A DNA stretch of 47,390 nt, taken from positions 1 to 47,390 of IMG/VR virus record IMGVR_UViG_3300042946_000447. One strand, 5' to 3'. Below the pieces are notes generated by a model that saw only the letters and a list, made by a program, of their open reading frames with translations, was not told the origin of the DNA and made no database searches. Position numbers and translations under genes: made by a program. The stretch is from a virus. Shown here piece after piece: positions 12,377 through 35,739 of this stretch; position 1 is the stretch's first letter; each line of letters begins with the position of its first letter.

Positions 12377-13021
12377 ATGCAGTTGTTTGAGCAATATCGC
12401 CCGAAAGACTTCTCGGAGGTCGTAGGCCAAGATAAGGCCATCACGCGCATTCTGGCGATCAAGGCCCGCACCGGCCTCGCAGGTCGCGCCTACTGGATCA
12501 GCGGCCAGAGCGGAACCGGCAAGACAACGATTGCCCGTCTGATCGCCAGTGACGTCGCGGAAGAGCTTGCCATCGAAGAGCTTGACGCAGGTAGCCTATC
12601 CGTCTCTGCCATCCAACAAATCGCCAGAGATTGCCGAACCCGAGGCATGGGAAAGCGCACGGGCCGCGTGTTCATCGTGAACGAGGCCCATGGGCTTCGT
12701 CGCGACGCAATTCGGCAACTGCTCGTCACGCTCGAATCAATCCCGGCCCATGTCGTCTGGATTTTCACCACGACGAACGACGGCGAACAATCGTTGTTCG
12801 ATGACACAGACGATGCGTGCCCGTTGTTGTCGCGTTGCCTGACGATCGCGTTGGCGCGCAGAGACCTGGCGAAACCCTTCGCCGAACGCGCTCGGGAGAT
12901 TGCACAGCGTGAAGGCCTCGACGGACAGCCTCTCGAGCGGTATATCCGCCTCGCGCAGACGCATAGGAACAACCTACGGGCGATGCTCAGCGCAATCGAA
13001 GCGGGCGAAATGGTAGCTTGA
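12377..13021 (+). CDS. Clamp-loader-like AAA+ ATPase (DnaX/RFC type)
   Basis: The 214-residue protein begins [15 protein letters not shown], the signature start of DnaX and RFC subunits. Walker A is GQSGTGKT (residues 43-50). Walker B is FIVNEAH (N102, E103), with Asn in place of the usual first Asp. Sensor 1 is TTTN (131-134), and the SRC arginine-finger motif is at 152-154. It lacks the collar and tau domains, so it is about a third of a normal DnaX. It may load or divert the host sliding clamp, or compete within the host clamp loader. GGAGG lies 8 bases upstream of the ATG. Confidence 0.88.
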
Positions 13022-17461: not shown

Positions 17462-18451
17462 CTAGTAGACCTTGCCCTTGATGACCTTCTTGTTTTCCAC
17501 CTTCCACGCCCCTTCTTTGTCGATCTCAACCATCGCGAACCCGTGCGTGCTGTTGCTGATTGGCCGATATCGGTATCTGGTTTGGCAGAGACAGGCCGTC
17601 GTGTATGTCGTGTGTTCGTGTTCCCCAAGCGTCTTTTCGCTATGTTCGCTTCGGCGGTGAACGTGACCACACATTGCCGACTCTTTTGTCTTGTTCCAGA
17701 GGCTTTTTGCTGGACTGGCCCCGCCCCCGCCGCCGCCAAACTCGTGACCATGAAGCACCGGCAGCTTTCCAATGTGGACTGGTCGGCACTCCTTCACGAC
17801 GTGGATGTCGAGCTTCTTCGTGTCGTAAATGCTGTCCCACTCAAACGCATTCACCCCCAAAAACTCCGGGGCTTTCTGCTGCATATACTTGTCGTAGCGT
17901 TCCTCGTGATTGCCCATCTTCCAGACGATCGTTGACCCAGGAAACTGGCCTCGCAGATACCGAAGCATCTCAATCGTCTTGTTGATCTCTTCGCCAAAGT
18001 TCCGCTCTCTCGGGTCGGTCTGCCAATGGCTGATTGCGTGTCCGTCTGCAATGTCACCATTCAGCAGAAGCCGATTGCATCCCTCTTTTTGCCCCCACTT
18101 AACAGCGGTATCGAGCGCAGTTTCATCATGAAACGGCACATGGATATCGCTTAGAACCAGCACTTTCGCTGGCCCGATCATCTGGTACGGCTTCCAGTCA
18201 ACAAACGTCGGAATCGAGGCAGGCATTCCAGCAACTGTGTGCTTCGTCGGCGCGTGGGTTGCTTTGTGCCTGTGTCCCTTACCCATCGCGCCCCTTGCAT
18301 ACCTGACCAGACACCGAGCCGCTTCAACGTCCGTGAACAACTTTGGCGAGTCTTTGTACGCCATCCGGGCAATCTGGCGGCTTGAGCTGTCTGGAAACTT
18401 TGCCAGCAGATCATGGATCAGCTTTCGCCCGTGCGGGTTTGCACTCGCCAT
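17462..18451 (-). CDS. Calcineurin-like metallophosphoesterase
   Basis: The 329-residue protein has the full metal-binding set: SDIH (D102, H104), NGDIADGH (D133), GNHE (180-183), HGHEF near 243 and CGHVH near 266. The first 80 residues are a separate helical, basic region (RQIARMAYKDSP) that may be a helix-turn-helix. The family hydrolyses phosphate esters, including nucleic acids and nucleotides, with two metal ions. The ATG at 18449-18451 has GAGGG 7 bases upstream. In a phage early operon a nuclease or 2',3'-cyclic phosphodiesterase role is plausible. Confidence 0.9.
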   Translation of the reverse strand: MASANPHGRKLIHDLLAKFPDSSSRQIARMAYKDSPKLFTDVEAARCLVRYARGAMGKGHRHKATHAPTKHTVAGMPASIPTFVDWKPYQMIGPAKVLVLSDIHVPFHDETALDTAVKWGQKEGCNRLLLNGDIADGHAISHWQTDPRERNFGEEINKTIEMLRYLRGQFPGSTIVWKMGNHEERYDKYMQQKAPEFLGVNAFEWDSIYDTKKLDIHVVKECRPVHIGKLPVLHGHEFGGGGGGASPAKSLWNKTKESAMCGHVHRRSEHSEKTLGEHEHTTYTTACLCQTRYRYRPISNSTHGFAMVEIDKEGAWKVENKKVIKGKVY

Positions 18452-18755
18452 CACCCGGCCCTCTGTACTGCATCACATCGAACAGGATCGCAGACAGTTC
18501 ACTCGCGACCGCTGACACCCACTCCTCGTTACAGTCGCTTCGCACCCCGTGTAGGAACTCGTGAATCAGCGTGTCGATCAGGTCTTTGCCGGCCAGTTTG
18601 TCGTAAACAAAAATCGTCCGAGCGTCCCAGTCACACAGCCCGTCAACGCGGTGAGATATCCCGTGTGATTTCGCCGTGTCCGTCAATCGTCGTCGGGGCA
18701 GCAGGACCAGCCGCCACGGCTTGCCCGCTACCGTGATTCGCTTGGCTGGCTGCAC
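18411..18755 (-). CDS. Small zinc metallopeptidase-like protein (HExxH)
   Basis: The 114-residue protein carries IHEFLHG (H65, E66, H69), the zinc-binding motif of gluzincin-like and SprT/IrrE-like peptidases, followed by acidic residues (NEEW) that can give the third ligand. The start is uncertain. I chose the GTG at 18753-18755; the frame is open to an ATG at 18836, and both overlap the upstream gene. Phage homologues have ITVAGKPWRLV-like starts, which fits this choice. Substrate unknown; such proteins often sit near repressor-cleavage or host-protein targeting systems. Confidence 0.75.
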   Translation of the reverse strand: MQPAKRITVAGKPWRLVLLPRRRLTDTAKSHGISHRVDGLCDWDARTIFVYDKLAGKDLIDTLIHEFLHGVRSDCNEEWVSAVASELSAILFDVMQYRGPGDGECKPARAKADP

Positions 18756-19014
18756 GGCTGGCTCCCGTAATGATGTCCAGACAATCCGAGTAGCCGCACA
18801 GGTCAACCATGCTGTCTCGGTGGTCTGGCGTCTCAACCAACCTCGCCACCTTCACCGCGAGCATGCACAGAACAACCTCGTGCGGTTCGATCTTCCGACC
18901 CAGAATCACTGTCCAGATCGCTGCGATGCGTTCATGATTCGGGCGAGGGTCGCCATAGTCCCGGCCCCGCTTGGCGACAATCTGCGTTGCCTCTTGAATC
19001 ACCGAAGCCATCAT
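18643..19014 (-). CDS. DUF6378 phage protein
   Basis: The 123-residue protein has the pattern KRGRDYGDPRPNHERIAAIW, then KIEPHEVVLCMLAVKVARL and HRDSMVDLCGYSDCLD. This is the conserved core of the DUF6378 phage family, mostly helical and resembling all-alpha nucleotide-binding proteins. The C-terminal 35 residues are low-complexity and overlap the metallopeptidase gene. GAGGGA precedes two adjacent ATGs. Function is not established; a role in nucleotide metabolism is a guess from its fold-like pattern. Confidence 0.82.
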   Translation of the reverse strand: MMASVIQEATQIVAKRGRDYGDPRPNHERIAAIWTVILGRKIEPHEVVLCMLAVKVARLVETPDHRDSMVDLCGYSDCLDIITGASRAASQANHGSGQAVAAGPAAPTTIDGHGEITRDISPR

Positions 19015-19124: not shown

Positions 19125-19466
19125 CTACTGGCAGACCTGCTGCCACCCAAAGCGGGTCCAAACAAAGCGACATGTTGGTGCGGCGTACTGAATCGACTGC
19201 GGGGCGATCTGCTTTGGCGTCGGCTTCGGAGCGACCGGGACCGCGAGACTTGGAACTTCAGCGGGCTTACTGGCGACGACAGGCCCGACCGAGAACACAT
19301 CGAGCATCAGCAGCGGCCCCGTAGTACCCTCGCCGCACGAGAACACGTCCAGCATCAGCGTGTCGCTTTTGCTAGTCGTCGCCGGCAGCACTGCGAACAC
19401 GTCCGGCAGGTCATTGGCGTACGCTGGAGCGCAGCAGAGCAGGGCGGCAAAGAGAGTCGGTCGCAT
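19125..19466 (-). CDS. Secreted small protein with repeated DVF motif
   Basis: The 113-residue protein starts with a signal peptide (MRPTLFAALLCCAPAYA then ND), with a likely signal peptidase site after AYA. The mature part has three DVF copies (LPDVFAV, LMLDVFSCGEG, LMLDVFSVGP), then a Pro/Ala spacer, and a two-Cys end (CRFVWTRFGWQQVCQ). GAGGTGA lies 4 bases before the ATG, a very strong site. It follows the papain-like protease gene. It may be a periplasmic partner of that protease, for example a pro-piece or a spanin-like factor; this is inference. Confidence 0.7.
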   Translation of the reverse strand: MRPTLFAALLCCAPAYANDLPDVFAVLPATTSKSDTLMLDVFSCGEGTTGPLLMLDVFSVGPVVASKPAEVPSLAVPVAPKPTPKQIAPQSIQYAAPTCRFVWTRFGWQQVCQ

Positions 19467-19470
19467 CGTG

Positions 19471-20493
19471 TCACCTCGTGAAAGGAACGGTGGAAGCAAA
19501 CACGTCAATCGTGAGTTGTTGGGCAGGAAACCCATCGAAGTCCGAATAGGCCCACGAATCGCCCTGCCGCGTGATGTAATCCATGTCGCTGGCCTCGACC
19601 CAGAATCCGCCGGGAGGCTCGTCGGCAAGCGGGGCAGGGTGAGCAGCATCGCCCCAGCTATTCAAGATGTAGAAGCGACCCGCAGGCCCACGCGATCCGT
19701 CGTACGCGATCACGCACATCTGGTGCATCCAGCGGGTATTCCTGCGGGCGACCTGCTGCCCGTCACGCGGCTTGATGTCGGTGCTGCCGTAGTCGCTGGC
19801 AATCGTGACCGGATACCCGTTGCAGATGGCGTCTCGGCAATCTACGGCTGTCGCAACCGGGGCGGTCGTCTTGACCAGCCGCTGCATGGCGAGCCGGATC
19901 ATGTCATCCGGCGGACCATTACTGCCCCACTGGCGGGCGATGGCTCCCGAGTAAGGCGGACAACCTGGATCGTCGAGCGATAGCACGCCGTACTTGCTGA
20001 CGCCCTTCGCGGCCCAGGCTCCGACCGAGCCATCACCGCGAACGCGATTCTTGCCGATCTGGACCCGCGAGATACCGTAGACATACGCCGTCGAGACACG
20101 GCGGAACTCAGTCGCAGGCCCATCGCGGGCAATTCGGATACAGAGCAGGTATTCAATCGCGTTCTTGGTGCCGAAGCTCACACAATCCCCGACCTGCTGC
20201 GGGTAATTATCCGTGTGCCGACCCAACACTTTCGTCGTCGCGTCCCACAGCTTCACGACAGCGCGGCTGTTGTCTTGGTAGACCGGCACGCCGTCGGCGT
20301 TGACGACCTGAAACGGCGTCGATTCAGCGACAACCGGCGCGGCGATCTCCGCGTGGTTTTCGACCAGCCCGTAGCGGTGATCCTCGGGCGTGACCGATGG
20401 CGAAGCAGTCAGCCACACAGCCAGACCGGCAGCCATCACGCCGAGGAAGAACGGCGCGCCCCACTTCAGAATGGACCACTGGCGGCGAGACAT
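19471..20493 (-). CDS. Membrane-anchored papain-like (C1) cysteine protease
   Basis: The 340-residue protein has one N-terminal membrane anchor (residues 12-30), a linker, then a C1-type peptidase domain. The active site is visible: Q99/Q100 with VGDC (C104) and helix VSFGTKNAIEYLL, H257 in WMHQMCVIAYDG, and N278 in LNSWGD. Extra Cys pairs suit an oxidising compartment, so the enzyme should face the periplasm. It is neighbour to a secreted protein and a holin-like PKD protein. No lysozyme or amidase was found in the genome, so this may be the envelope-degrading enzyme. A role in superinfection or protein processing is the alternative. Confidence 0.88.
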   Translation of the reverse strand: MSRRQWSILKWGAPFFLGVMAAGLAVWLTASPSVTPEDHRYGLVENHAEIAAPVVAESTPFQVVNADGVPVYQDNSRAVVKLWDATTKVLGRHTDNYPQQVGDCVSFGTKNAIEYLLCIRIARDGPATEFRRVSTAYVYGISRVQIGKNRVRGDGSVGAWAAKGVSKYGVLSLDDPGCPPYSGAIARQWGSNGPPDDMIRLAMQRLVKTTAPVATAVDCRDAICNGYPVTIASDYGSTDIKPRDGQQVARRNTRWMHQMCVIAYDGSRGPAGRFYILNSWGDAAHPAPLADEPPGGFWVEASDMDYITRQGDSWAYSDFDGFPAQQLTIDVFASTVPFTR

Positions 20494-21222
20494 TTACACA
20501 AGCTCCAATTGCTTAGGGGCCGGTGCAGGCTCTTTGAACAGGTCGCACTTGGCGAGTCGCTCGGCTTCGCGGATTCGCTTCAAAGCGATCTCAAAGTACT
20601 TTGGTTCCTTCTCGATGCCGACAAAGCGGCGTCCGGTGCGGATGCATGCTACGCCGGTCGTGCCCGATCCAGCGAACGGGTCGAGGATCAGGTCTCCCGG
20701 CGTACTACCGACTTGCTCAAGGCACCAACGCATCAGGCAGACAGGCTTTTGCGTCGGGTGGTTTCGTGTGTCGCCTTTGTCCTCGCCCGCGCCTTGGCAC
20801 ATACCCTTCCAGACGTATGAGAAAATGCGAGACGCTCCCCGGCGGGAATGCCATGCGAACTCAACATCAGAAAAGCTATCCCACGGCTCCTTGTCGCCCA
20901 GCTTATTCCAAGCCAAAAAGCGACCATGCGGCAGACGCTGGGAGAAGTGATCGGCACCCCACATCAGGACGTTATCGCACAGGGATAGGAACGGAGCGGG
21001 GTCGAAGGGCTGATCGTCGCCCGCAATCGCTTCAATATTTCGCTGTTCACCTGCCTCGAACTTGACGCCGCAGTAGCCGCCTTTCTTTCCGCCAGTCCCC
21101 TTCTTGTACGAAATGCCATACGGCGGATCTGTCACGACCGCATCGACCTTGCCCAGCGTCGGCAGCACGTCCAGACAGTCGCCGAGGTACAGCGTGCAAT
21201 GCTCGGTATGTTCGACGCGCAT
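20494..21222 (-). CDS. DNA methyltransferase (beta class, N6-adenine or N4-cytosine)
   Basis: The 242-residue protein has motif IV TDPPYG (residues 32-36) near the N-terminus and motif I LDPFAGSGTTG (around residue 195) near the C-terminus, the order of beta-class amino-methyltransferases. HPTQKP stands before motif I. The ATG overlaps the TGA of the upstream gene. No restriction endonuclease is adjacent, so it is probably an orphan enzyme that protects phage DNA or marks control sites. The target sequence cannot be read from the protein. Confidence 0.93.
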   Translation of the reverse strand: MRVEHTEHCTLYLGDCLDVLPTLGKVDAVVTDPPYGISYKKGTGGKKGGYCGVKFEAGEQRNIEAIAGDDQPFDPAPFLSLCDNVLMWGADHFSQRLPHGRFLAWNKLGDKEPWDSFSDVEFAWHSRRGASRIFSYVWKGMCQGAGEDKGDTRNHPTQKPVCLMRWCLEQVGSTPGDLILDPFAGSGTTGVACIRTGRRFVGIEKEPKYFEIALKRIREAERLAKCDLFKEPAPAPKQLELV

Positions 21223-22451
21223 CAGGCCGTCCCCCACCGCAGGCCCGCAGCGACTTCGCGGAACAACCCCGCCCAGTCGTCGAGCGCCTTGAGTTGCGGG
21301 GCAATCTCTTTCAGCCGCGCATTGAGCTTGCCCACGACAGCCAGCAACGACGGGCGAGGAATGCCGATCTTGGCCAGAAACGCCCGCGCGATCTTGGCAG
21401 CCATCTCGTTGATATTCGCGCCGGTGAAGTTTGCGGGCGTTGCGACGATCTCCGCAGCCATCGCCTCACAGATTCCCGCGTAGGCAATGCGGTCGTCCTT
21501 CGAGATGTCTTTAGCCCACGTCGCAACGTCCCGAGTCAGGTTGAAACGCGACTCAGGGGGACCGGGCGGCACAGGGGGAGAAGGCTCCGGTGCCGGTGGT
21601 CCCGGCGTGGGCGTCGGTGCAGGCGACGGCGGCGTCGGTGTCGGCACCGGAGCGGGAGGGGATGGCGGGATAGGCGACGGCGTAGGCTGCGGTGTCGCGG
21701 GAATCGTGACCGTCCACGTCAGCAGGTCGGCCCCTTCGGCGTTCGAGACGACGAGCGTGTACTGCCACGAACCCGGCAGGCTCGCGATATTGATCCGCGA
21801 TCCATCCTCGCCGCACGTCCGAAACATCACGCGACCCGGCAAGTCAGGCTGAACACGCCAGAGATAGCGGACCTTGTCGCCCTGCGATCCAGAGGCGTCG
21901 AGCGTGAGCAGTTCGCCAGCCGTGCCCGTCGTCGGCCCGTTGATGACGGCTTTGGGGGCGGCGGCAGAGGCAGCACCGGCGATGGACAAAAACACCAGCA
22001 GGGACTTGGTAACTGCTGGTAAATCGACAATGCCGCTGTCGTCTTCGGTCGACTTCGGGACGAACGCCTGTCCGCTGAACCCGGTAATCGGCCCCTCAAA
22101 CTGCGGGAACACATCCGGCACAACCGGCGTCTGATACGGCTCGAACGCCTTCCGCACGATATCGACCAGCAACTGAAACGCTTCCGGCGTCAACTGCCGG
22201 CGAAAGCTCTCGATTGCCGACCGAAGCCCAGCAACCGCAAGCGATCCACCCAACCCCAGCAGCATCACCCACAGGTCGGGCGTCATCCAGGCAGGCAGCG
22301 CGAATCCGTCCGCGTTCATGATCCGTGGGCAGGTCGCGTAGTAGCCGACCGAGCCAGCCGCAATCAAGGCCGCACCCGCGTAGCTTTTAAACCCGTTCGT
22401 GGCCCGCCAGATAGCGAGGCCGACCTGCACCAGCGTGATAACCCAGCCCAT
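21222..22451 (-). CDS. Holin-like membrane protein fused to a PKD domain and Pro-rich linker
   Basis: The 409-residue protein has three hydrophobic segments in its first 90 residues (VITLVQVGLAIW, AALIAAGSVGYYA, LWVMLLGLGGSLAVAGL), then a linker, then a fourth hydrophobic segment near 150-165 (SLLVFLSIAGAASAAA) that resembles a signal sequence. It continues with a PKD/Ig-like domain (AVINGPTTGTAGELLTLDASGS, about 165-250), a Pro/Thr-rich stretch (about 254-300) and a helical end. GGAGGTG is 7 bases before the ATG. A surface-exposed or envelope-spanning role is likely. The holin label rests only on the N-terminal spans and neighbours. Confidence 0.65.
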   Translation of the reverse strand: MGWVITLVQVGLAIWRATNGFKSYAGAALIAAGSVGYYATCPRIMNADGFALPAWMTPDLWVMLLGLGGSLAVAGLRSAIESFRRQLTPEAFQLLVDIVRKAFEPYQTPVVPDVFPQFEGPITGFSGQAFVPKSTEDDSGIVDLPAVTKSLLVFLSIAGAASAAAPKAVINGPTTGTAGELLTLDASGSQGDKVRYLWRVQPDLPGRVMFRTCGEDGSRINIASLPGSWQYTLVVSNAEGADLLTWTVTIPATPQPTPSPIPPSPPAPVPTPTPPSPAPTPTPGPPAPEPSPPVPPGPPESRFNLTRDVATWAKDISKDDRIAYAGICEAMAAEIVATPANFTGANINEMAAKIARAFLAKIGIPRPSLLAVVGKLNARLKEIAPQLKALDDWAGLFREVAAGLRWGTA

Positions 22452-32281: not shown

Positions 32282-32455
32282 CTACTTCTGCTCGCCTTCC
32301 TTCTTGATCTGCACCCAAACTTCCTCCCGATGAACCGGCACATCGAGTGGCGCTTCAATTCCCAGCCGCACCCGGTCGCCGACGATTGCGACGACCATCA
32401 CCTTTACGTCGCCGATTCGGATTGCCTCGTCCTTTTGTCGCGTTAGCACCAGCAT
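32282..32455 (-). CDS. csrA: CsrA/RsmA translational regulator
   Basis: The 57-residue protein matches CsrA end to end: MLVLTRQKDEAIRIGD, VVAIVGDRVRLGIEAP, and VHREEVW. The RNA-contacting residues L4, R6 and R43 (R44 in longer CsrA) are present. CsrA dimers bind GGA in loops, often over ribosome binding sites, to block or aid translation. AGGAG lies 7 bases before the ATG. It is the third gene of the leftward operon and overlaps the end of the gene before it by 101 bases. Here it may time phage genes or reset host metabolism. Confidence 0.93.
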   Translation of the reverse strand: MLVLTRQKDEAIRIGDVKVMVVAIVGDRVRLGIEAPLDVPVHREEVWVQIKKEGEQK

Positions 32456-33376: not shown

Positions 33377-33594
33377 GTGAGTGTTTCAGATTTTTTCCGA
33401 CGGTACGGACTGGTCCGCCGATCTGGACGTGTTAGGAACTTCTGCACATCGTCCTCGTAAAAGAATGTCCGCCCGTGGTGTTTTTGGCCGATGAGGCCAC
33501 GGCGGACGTGATAGGACACGAGGTCTACGCTCGCTCCGACACGGGCGGCGAAGTCACTCAGCAACATCGGCAGTTCACGGGATGAGGTTTCCAT
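33373..33594 (-). CDS. Excisionase- or MerR-like DNA-binding protein
   Basis: The 73-residue protein has a winged-helix pattern of the excisionase/MerR kind: LPMLLSDFAARVGASVDLVSYHVRRGLI, then HHGRTFFYEDDVQKFL, with a basic tail (PYRRKKSETLT). It diverges from the integrase gene, the usual place of an Xis or a repressor. No larger CI-like repressor is seen in the window, so this small protein may also serve as the lysogeny regulator. The start sits 7 bases after a -10 box, so its message may be leaderless. Confidence 0.75.
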   Translation of the reverse strand: METSSRELPMLLSDFAARVGASVDLVSYHVRRGLIGQKHHGRTFFYEDDVQKFLTRPDRRTSPYRRKKSETLT

Positions 33595-33601
33595 GCCGGG
33601 A

Positions 33602-33629
33602 ATCTTACCCTATCGTGTAGGGAATTCAA
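33602..33629 (-). promoter_or_regulatory. Promoter of the excisionase-like gene, with short palindrome
   Basis: On the minus strand, TTGAAT (33624-33629), a 16-base spacer and TAAGAT (33602-33607) form a promoter, with the ATG (33592-33594) only 7 bases past the -10. A palindrome CCCTA-TCGTG-TAGGG (33608-33622) fills the spacer and could bind an autoregulator. The integrase ribosome binding site starts just to the right. Confidence 0.55.
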
Positions 33630-33643
33630 CGGGAGAAGGTGCG

Positions 33644-34573
33644 ATGAACAGCGGAGAAACGGCGTTGTCGGTGATTCTGGATAAATATGTCCAGAAACGA
33701 TTGCGGGACGCCAGCCCTTCGACGGTGGCCCAGTACCACCAGGCGATCCAGCGGCTGGAGAAGCACGTCGGGGTGACGCCCACGGTCGAGCATCTGGACG
33801 CGGACACCATCGAGTCCGTCATGTACTCGATGAAAGCGGTTGCGTTGGCTCCTCGGACGTGCAACAAGTTTCGGGAGAACGTCGTCGCCCTGTGGAACTT
33901 TGCTGCCAAACAGGGAATCACGAAGGATTTTCCCGACATCAAGCGGTTGAAGGAACCACGGCGGAAACCCAAAGCGTGGACAGGCGACGAGATTGATGCC
34001 CTGTTTGCCAGTTGCGGCCAAGCGGAAGGCGAGATCGGCGGCGCTCCGGCCCGGCTCTGGTGGCGGGGTCTGTTTCTCGTGATGTATGACACCGCCGAAC
34101 GGAAAGAAGCCGTGCTGCAACTGCGGTGGTCAGACGTAAAACTCGACACCGGCTGGGTCACGTTCCGCGCGGAGACGCGAAAGCGGGGCGCGGAAGACAG
34201 CCTATCCCGATTTCATCAGGCCACAGTGACGCTACTGAAACAGATGCGGCGTTACCAGACGCCGGGCGAAACGCTTGTGTTTCCGTGGACGCTCGGGTCA
34301 GGCACGATCTACCATTACCTGGACAAGATTCTGGTTCGGGCGGGCCTGCCAACTGACCGCTTCTCAAAGTTCCACTGCATGCGCAGATCGGTCGCCTCGC
34401 ACTTTGCGGCAGGTGGCGGGGACGCGACCCGGCTTCTTGGGCACGCGGATCAGCGGACGACGACGAAGCATTACCTTGACCCGAGGATTGTCGGGCAGCA
34501 GTCTGCGGCGGATGTACTGCGGAGACCGGACAGCGTTACCGAAGTTGTTGGCTTTTCTGAGGGGGTTGGGTGA
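33644..34573 (+). CDS. int: Tyrosine integrase
   Basis: The 309-residue protein has an N-terminal core-binding SAM-like domain (about 5-100, YHQAIQRLEKHVG) and a C-terminal catalytic domain with all active residues: R153, K180, H244-x-x-R247 in HCMRRS, H267 in LGHAD and Y277 in TKHYLDP. It inserts the phage circle into the host chromosome, so the phage is temperate. The ATG at 33644 has GGAGAAGG upstream; the frame is open 51 bases further, but no good site is there. The attachment site is not evident. Confidence 0.95.
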   Translation: MNSGETALSVILDKYVQKRLRDASPSTVAQYHQAIQRLEKHVGVTPTVEHLDADTIESVMYSMKAVALAPRTCNKFRENVVALWNFAAKQGITKDFPDIKRLKEPRRKPKAWTGDEIDALFASCGQAEGEIGGAPARLWWRGLFLVMYDTAERKEAVLQLRWSDVKLDTGWVTFRAETRKRGAEDSLSRFHQATVTLLKQMRRYQTPGETLVFPWTLGSGTIYHYLDKILVRAGLPTDRFSKFHCMRRSVASHFAAGGGDATRLLGHADQRTTTKHYLDPRIVGQQSAADVLRRPDSVTEVVGFSEGVG

Positions 34574-34821
34574 TGGCTGATGGTCAAATGCCGGAAGAGT
34601 GTTGCGGCAAGTGTAGATTCTGGTGGAGAGAGGCCGCTGATACCTACGGGGATGACGATCCTATTTTTGGGGATGAGGATTTTTCGCAGTGCCGCCGATT
34701 CCCTAAACAGCACGACTCGGCCTCGCGTGGATTTCAGTTTGAGTACGAGCCGTTTTACCACCCAATCACGCTCCAAAGCGATTGGTGTGGTGAGTTTCAA
34801 CCAAAAGAGGTGCAATCATGA
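34573..34821 (+). CDS. Four-Cys small protein
   Basis: The 82-residue protein (MADGQMPEECCGKCRFWW) has CxxC-type pairs at the start and CRRFP and WCGEF later. This matches small phage zinc-binding proteins with a CGxCxFW...CR...WCGE layout. The ATG overlaps the integrase stop (TGATG), and GGGGG is upstream. Function unknown; co-translated with the integrase. Confidence 0.75.
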   Translation: MADGQMPEECCGKCRFWWREAADTYGDDDPIFGDEDFSQCRRFPKQHDSASRGFQFEYEPFYHPITLQSDWCGEFQPKEVQS

Positions 34822-35111
34822 TGCGACGATACGGCATGGATTCGATGTGGCTCGCGGTAGCGTTCGGGCTTGGTTGCGGGCTGGGGTATGTCGCTGGCGT
34901 CATCCCCAAGGTCGAGCTTGAGGAGCAACTACTGAATCGGGGTATTCGCCGCATTCAGCGGTTGCCGAATGGTGCCGAGATCACCCGCTGGCCACCGATG
35001 GACAGCCACGGCAACACGGCTTGGCCGCAGTCGTGGGCAGGGTGGGGCCGTGAGGTTCCGCCGGGAGAGTCGCTGCCGGGGTGGGACGCAGCTACGTCTT
35101 CGCAACAGTAA
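34818..35111 (+). CDS. Membrane protein after the integrase
   Basis: The 97-residue protein has an N-terminal membrane span (about residues 9-28, MWLAVAFGLGCGLGYVAGVI) and a Trp/Pro-rich soluble part (ITRWPPMDSHG, AWPQSWAGWG). Its ATG overlaps the stop before it (ATGA). It is convergent with the receptor-binding-like gene and overlaps its end by 20 bases. It could be a superinfection-exclusion factor expressed in lysogens; there is no direct proof. Confidence 0.63.
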   Translation: MMRRYGMDSMWLAVAFGLGCGLGYVAGVIPKVELEEQLLNRGIRRIQRLPNGAEITRWPPMDSHGNTAWPQSWAGWGREVPPGESLPGWDAATSSQQ

Positions 35112-35739
35112 AGACGGCCGACGTAACCTCAACCGCTGGCCCGATGCCCACGAGGTCGATAATGAATATGGTCACTTCGTCCGTCGCGACGAGCGCGACG
35201 GAAGTCGAACCAGTCAGTGTAGTTGATCCTGCGCCAAATATATCGCTATCAAACATTGCCCCATTTTTGTAAAGGATAATGCTGGTAAGGCTTGCTCGCG
35301 AAACGATGTTGACGGTGTACTCAACGGAGTAGGTTCCGTCGCTTTGACAGACAATTTTTTCGGGCGGCGACCACATTGAGTTTGGGTCGTAGTTTACGGA
35401 ACTGAACTGAATCAGTCCCTGATAAGTGAATGACTGCGCCCCGCCCACGGCCTGCACGCTAAACGGTGCCCCACCACCAGCAAGCGACATCTGCGCCATC
35501 ATCGAAAAGTTCCGCCGCACGCCCCCCTTGGTAGTGCCCCGGCTGAACGTGTTCCCGCCCGACTGCTTGTCGTTCAGGATGTTCATCAACGACTGCGCCC
35601 GCCGAATCGAGGCAATCGTCGTCGGGCGCGGAATCACATTGCCGACGTTACCCTCGGACGCAGACTGGCTCGGCAGTCGCGACCCGTCACGCTTTCGCCC
35701 AGCGTTGTTTGACCCGCGATTGAATGCGCCGTTTGCCAT
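35092..35739 (-). CDS. Receptor-binding-like protein with C-terminal beta-sandwich
   Basis: The 215-residue protein begins MANGAFNRGSNNAG with a low-complexity N-terminus, then a helix (TTIASIRRAQSLMNIL). A C-terminal beta-sandwich of about 110 residues follows (YTVNIVSRASLTSIILYKNG, STTLTGSTSVALVATDEVTIFI), resembling C1q/TNF-like heads of phage fibres. It is the last gene of the virion operon and has its own operator copy. A fibre tip or head-fibre role is likely. Confidence 0.62.
   Translation of the reverse strand: MANGAFNRGSNNAGRKRDGSRLPSQSASEGNVGNVIPRPTTIASIRRAQSLMNILNDKQSGGNTFSRGTTKGGVRRNFSMMAQMSLAGGGAPFSVQAVGGAQSFTYQGLIQFSSVNYDPNSMWSPPEKIVCQSDGTYSVEYTVNIVSRASLTSIILYKNGAMFDSDIFGAGSTTLTGSTSVALVATDEVTIFIIDLVGIGPAVEVTSAVFTVAKT

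Follow-up and report, generated by a model that had tools for sequence, protein, structure and literature searches.

A xylellain-type cysteine protease and its membrane partner form a probable lysis cassette in a temperate podovirus of planctomycetes

The window analyzed here is an entire IMG/VR virus record of 47,390 bases (IMGVR_UViG_3300042946_000447), and the subject is a cluster of four consecutive genes on its minus strand (19125–22451) that includes a papain-like cysteine protease. The gene content of the window is that of a temperate podovirus-like phage, with an SU10-like portal, a weak major-head match, an integrase, RecT, YqaJ, SSB, and CsrA. The cluster begins with a 409-residue membrane protein (21222–22451) that has an ATG start preceded by GGAGGTG. 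Its architecture consists of two transmembrane (TM) segments at residues 62–80 and 140–158, a weak PKD domain, a proline-rich linker, and a C-terminal helical domain (21225–21530, minus strand). An N6/N4 DNA methyltransferase gene (20494–21222; PF01555, E 3e-26; phrog_67, E 2e-52) overlaps the PKD protein stop codon. The ATG of the 340-residue protease (19471–20493) lies right after the methyltransferase stop. The last gene (19125–19466) encodes a 113-residue secreted protein with three DVF repeats (DLPDVFAVLP, LMLDVFSCGE, and LMLDVFSVGP), and the GAGGTGA before its start overlaps the protease stop. The start and stop codons between the four genes thus overlap, touch, or lie a few bases apart, and the coordinates agree with the consecutive, coupled arrangement described in the initial annotation of this DNA.

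Single-sequence searches did not classify the protease. No Pfam family, including PF00112 and C71, was found at E ≤ 1, the PDB search gave no match, and tblastn against 50,697 annotated phages gave none. Scans of IMG/VR returned 16 relatives at first and 109 in a second scan. A profile built from 21 relatives and compared with the PDB retrieved xylellain (3OIS, E 1.1e-5) as the top match, followed by cathepsins, with the Cys, His, and Asn residues aligned, and one relative matches PF00112 at E 2.6e-4. The AlphaFold (AF2) model computed from 42 sequences has a pLDDT of 90.5 and a pTM of 0.86; a first model from 7 sequences had a pLDDT of 43 and was discarded. Foldseek with the retained model again placed 3OIS at the top (E 2e-10, probability 1.00), with procathepsins next. 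The predicted catalytic center of the window protease is Gln99, Cys104, His257, and Asn278 in the C1A order. All 96 full-length relatives, which comprise 71 distinct sequences, retain the Cys, His, and Asn-Ser-Trp-Gly (NSWG) motifs; one has an intein at the Cys. Conservation of Asn278 in alignment A8 is partly the result of selection because NSWG was an entry condition for that alignment; alignment A3 and the count of 96 relatives were not selected in this way. A hydrophobic segment at residues 8–26, located by hydropathy, is the predicted signal anchor. The motifs and the predicted xylellain fold bear out the C1 protease with a full triad proposed in the initial annotation, and the hydropathy profile is consistent with the membrane anchor proposed there. 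Together, profile and model indicate that the window protease is a C1A (xylellain-type) peptidase with predicted proteolytic activity.

Further features were recorded at protease loci. Locus L060 of a 194-kb phage (4561–6873) has an intein placed exactly at the catalytic Cys of its C1 protease, and a second papain-like protein of 598 residues lies nearby (L060:7770–9566), apparently also with an intein at the Cys. One of the three protease copies in Pan216 has an in-frame TGA (L184, 1102938–1103846).

The neighbors of 101 protease loci were read with a simple gene caller of our own, and a non-redundant set of 49 loci differing by more than 15% was drawn from them. The most conserved part of the window PKD protein is its C-terminal helical domain, and a profile of this domain matches the window at E 7e-10. 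A member of the helical-domain family occupies the position directly before the protease (−1) in 79 of the 101 loci, −2 in 9, −3 in 2, and +3 in 1; positions −1 to −3 are filled in 44 of the 49 non-redundant loci. Such recurrence of one partner at one position across about 100 homologous loci goes beyond chance. In most cases a signal or TM segment comes before the domain, and an Ig/PKD domain with a proline-rich linker is often present as well. It was considered as a hidden lytic transglycosylase, a candidate rejected for want of a conserved catalytic-type residue and of a meaningful PDB match. The multi-span PKD protein of the initial annotation is upheld in its two clear TM segments; by hydropathy the other spans are marginal, and Pfam matches the PKD domain only weakly (PKD_4, E 0.011).

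In 32 of the 42 loci with data, small TM proteins are encoded upstream of the protease. One of these, a 68-residue protein in L020, matches a PHROG holin family at E 0.0012 and Phage_holin_10 at E 0.0085, below the cut-off. In L180 a holin-like domain of the L020 type is fused to the helical-domain protein, an arrangement that resembles the window protein. In 32 of 43 loci the gene directly downstream of the protease encodes a protein whose N terminus is a signal or TM segment. Like the DVF protein, these proteins often contain repeats of a short motif (FAVF/FALF in Pan216, DWQFGL in L024, and FDVLAG in L186). In L019 and L020 the repeat protein and the protease form a single fusion, which in L019 runs on into a thioredoxin domain; thioredoxin-like motifs occur within four genes of the protease in at least 9 of the 49 loci. 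We regard the DVF protein as a variable accessory of the module. The methyltransferase is not a core component because in L001, whose protease is 93% identical to that of the window, the protease starts right after the PKD stop. We therefore treat this gene as cargo and remove it from the lysis set in which the initial annotation had placed it. A 141-residue protein with a zinc-metallopeptidase-like HEFLHG motif, encoded at 18411–18836, is co-conserved with the protease across the L010 group.

Phages or prophages of planctomycetes account for essentially all of the roughly 100 protease relatives, with genomes up to 274 kb. A search of 84,980 species genomes found five loci, four of them in planctomycetes; the fifth is a phage-like contig in another metagenome-assembled genome, with genes nearly those of phage L034. 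Among 392 Planctomycetota genomes the protease is present in 14, with three copies in Pan216. These distributions identify the host of the window phage as a planctomycete. In two planctomycete genomes the cassette stands alone (L097:6168–8970 and L262, G199 C1:872.9–875.8 kb). The stand-alone set consists of three small TM proteins, a helical-domain lipoprotein, the C1 protease (86% identical), and a thioredoxin. It is flanked by ordinary bacterial genes, adjoins a U32-peptidase gene, and has no recognized phage genes nearby in either L097 or G199. These copies delimit the core of the module and are possibly domesticated lysis cassettes.

Recognizable murein hydrolases were not found beside this module. 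Amidase_2 (PF01510) gave nothing over the cut-off in 22 protease-bearing virus records. SLT (PF01464), NLPC_P60 (PF00877), Peptidase_M23 (PF01551), Phage_lysozyme (PF00959), CHAP (PF05257), and M15_4 (PF13539) gave nothing over the cut-off in 32 records, three of which are 194–275 kb in length. Control genomes were positive in these searches. M23 matches in G019 fell below the cut-off (E 0.003 and 0.013). Pfam scans of the window proteins and of phages G006 and G003 detected no murein hydrolase. The statement in the initial annotation that the genome has no lysozyme, amidase, or transglycosylase is thus confirmed for recognizable enzymes by Pfam, and the profile check across seven families and up to 32 records extends it to the relatives.

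Phages that share the terminase, portal, and head genes of the window (~31–42% TerL identity) also exist without the C1 protease. Amidase_2 is absent from these relatives, and Pfam scans of G034 and G036 found no murein hydrolase. In place of C1, G036, G037, and the planctomycete prophage G428 of the same virion family encode a C39-like cysteine protease that is secreted or anchored, and after it come a thioredoxin-like TM protein and other TM proteins. The term C39-like is our label for the pattern of Cys, His, and Asp-Asn residues, and no Pfam family matched. This family has 70 loci in IMG/VR, and its Cys, His, and Asp-Asn-Asn residues are invariant or nearly so. The two proteases were not found together: the 123 C1 loci, including seven near-complete genomes, have no C39 match, and the 70 C39 loci have no C1 match. 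In close relatives the two cassettes occupy one and the same locus: L049 (C1) and L248 (C39) are 73.5% identical in DNA over 1,929 bases and share a 206-residue gene at 91% identity. The identity runs to a tail-assembly-like gene; past this gene L049 continues with the C1 cassette and L248 with the C39 protease and a small TM protein. The same exchange is seen between L038 and L254 and between L098 and L251. Replacement by an alternative enzyme cassette at one locus is a trait of lysis cassettes, and these three pairs display it. The initial annotation had treated the absence of the cluster from related phages with lysis genes elsewhere as the outcome that would speak against it. Cluster-free relatives do exist, but most carry other extracytoplasmic proteases, and those scanned have no recognizable murein hydrolase.

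Other enzymes were noted among these relatives. In G035 (34604–35572; L154:15604–16572), where C1 is absent, a secreted lipoprotein that fuses a trypsin-like protease to a thioredoxin lies directly before an 89-residue TM protein. A papain-fold protein of ~190–200 residues with a YiiX/C92-like appearance and an SHVGIVG motif, without a Pfam match, is encoded at L157:17833–18426 and L160:2517–3074, and such a protein precedes the C39-like protease in G036, G037, and many of their relatives.

The module is compact and movable, excludes and is exchanged one-for-one with another protease cassette at a late-gene locus, has holin-like companions, and is accompanied by no other recognizable lysin. 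From these properties we infer a lysis module, and we consider it reasonably probable that the cluster serves this temperate planctomycete podovirus as its lysis cassette, with the protease as the enzyme. The lysis set of the initial annotation gains from the conserved partner, the restriction to one phylum, the replacement at the same locus, and the stand-alone copies; it loses the methyltransferase, and its lytic function is read from genomic patterns. In the mechanism we propose, the signal anchor would keep the protease at the cytoplasmic membrane, on its outer side. The small TM proteins, separate in most phages and apparently fused to the PKD protein in the window, would be the holin or trigger. 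The proline-rich helical-domain membrane protein would be an obligate partner of the protease, either to place it or to hold it back until lysis. The freed protease would then cut an envelope component, either proteins linked to the cell wall or outer membrane or the peptides of peptidoglycan, and the DVF-type secreted proteins and thioredoxins may assist, for example by opening disulfides.

Several known systems resemble parts of this arrangement. The short bacterial C1A peptidases of the xylellain type (MEROPS C1A, PF00112; 3OIS) have the same fold and Gln-Cys-His-Asn center and are closest by profile and structure, but the phage protease is signal-anchored (predicted), linked to small TM proteins and to a membrane protein with the helical domain, and confined to phages of planctomycetes. 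Xylellain-type peptidases are reported as acquired by Myoviridae and Siphoviridae, in a source whose relevant passages state no role for the phage copies (PMC10380794). PeiW and PeiP are phage cysteine peptidases that lyse hosts with a non-standard wall (PMC4592898). These pseudomurein endoisopeptidases of methanogen phages are, like the window enzyme, phage-encoded cysteine peptidases; however, they belong to another family (C71), for which the window protease has no match, and cleave an isopeptide bond in pseudomurein. CHAP and NlpC/P60 endolysins are also papain-like superfamily cysteine enzymes in phage lysis, but neither was matched in the 32 records, and the window protease has Asn-Ser-Trp-Gly and xylellain and procathepsins as its nearest structures. 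The holin-endolysin-spanin cassettes of tailed phages are likewise compact late cassettes, movable as a unit, that combine small TM proteins with an enzyme located outside the cytoplasm (predicted here). They differ in that the enzyme here is a C1A protease, the partner is an Ig/PKD, proline-rich, helical-domain protein, and thioredoxins recur.

Several observations weigh against a protease-driven lysis cassette. Planctomycete sacculi are peptidoglycan and are lysozyme-sensitive (PMC4432640). A peptide-bond enzyme must therefore either cleave the peptides of the peptidoglycan or attack proteins without which the cell bursts. For a host with such a sacculus, the protein-based outer wall suggested in the initial annotation is not an established sole target. 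No protease cassette was found in the scan of G034, a TerL relative without C1. No conserved residue of the helical domain points to its role. The N terminus of the window PKD protein has no significant match to holins (E 2.8), so its holin-like label is suggestive only. The negative searches cover recognizable murein hydrolases in IMG/VR records, some of which are perhaps incomplete, and for two additional phages the Pfam matches listed comprise 25 of 42 families.

The peptidoglycan sacculus (PMC4432640) also leaves room for a protease module with an auxiliary part in lysis: like a spanin or LysB, it would open proteins of the outer envelope, and the peptidoglycan would be cut by an unrecognized murein hydrolase encoded elsewhere. 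The further C92-like papain-fold protein in the C39-type cassettes, the many unannotated genes, and the giant virion proteins in all these genomes fit this arrangement. The seven hydrolase families and the full Pfam scans were negative even in the phages of 194–275 kb, where recognizable lysins are expected, and we regard an auxiliary role as unlikely, though the most serious of the alternatives.

A surface protease could also serve lysogenic conversion or superinfection exclusion by destroying receptors or protecting the lysogen. The window phage is temperate (integrase, 33593–34573), the protease is predicted to be extracytoplasmic and anchored, morons often adjoin lysis genes, and two planctomycete genomes keep an isolated chromosomal copy. 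The cassette is, however, present in very large phages, lies among late genes or directly upstream of terminase, and is swapped one-for-one with a different protease cassette with which it is never combined, while no other lysin is recognizable; an exclusion device is accordingly improbable. The position upstream of terminase in some relatives, and the fact that maturation proteases are common in phages, could point to virion maturation or ejection. This is the least credible explanation, and we give it very little weight: an N-terminal signal or TM segment on the protease in 27 of the 49 loci and the secreted partners point outside the cytoplasm, and the L095 prophage has its own S49-like protease adjoining the portal.

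Elsewhere in the window, a CsrA homologue is encoded at 32282–32455 and a clamp-loader-like AAA protein at 12377–13021.

A broader proposal, speculative and in our view doubtful, is that planctomycete phages as a group dropped murein hydrolases and lyse their hosts by extracytoplasmic proteases (C1A, C39-like, and perhaps trypsin-like) together with thioredoxins that open disulfide-linked envelope proteins, and that some planctomycetes keep the cassette for their own controlled lysis. The literature searched contained nothing on phage lysis of planctomycetes. If the assignment of the cluster as a lysis cassette is correct, many phages of one phylum would lyse their hosts by a papain-type protease without a recognizable peptidoglycan hydrolase. 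The six-gene cassette standing alone on planctomycete chromosomes would be a testable unit. Either the envelope layer that limits release would be protein-dependent, or a C1A protease would be able to cut peptidoglycan, and either outcome bears on the long-debated question of whether planctomycetes have a protein wall or peptidoglycan. The cassette would also supply lysins and genetic tools for a group whose phages have hardly been studied.

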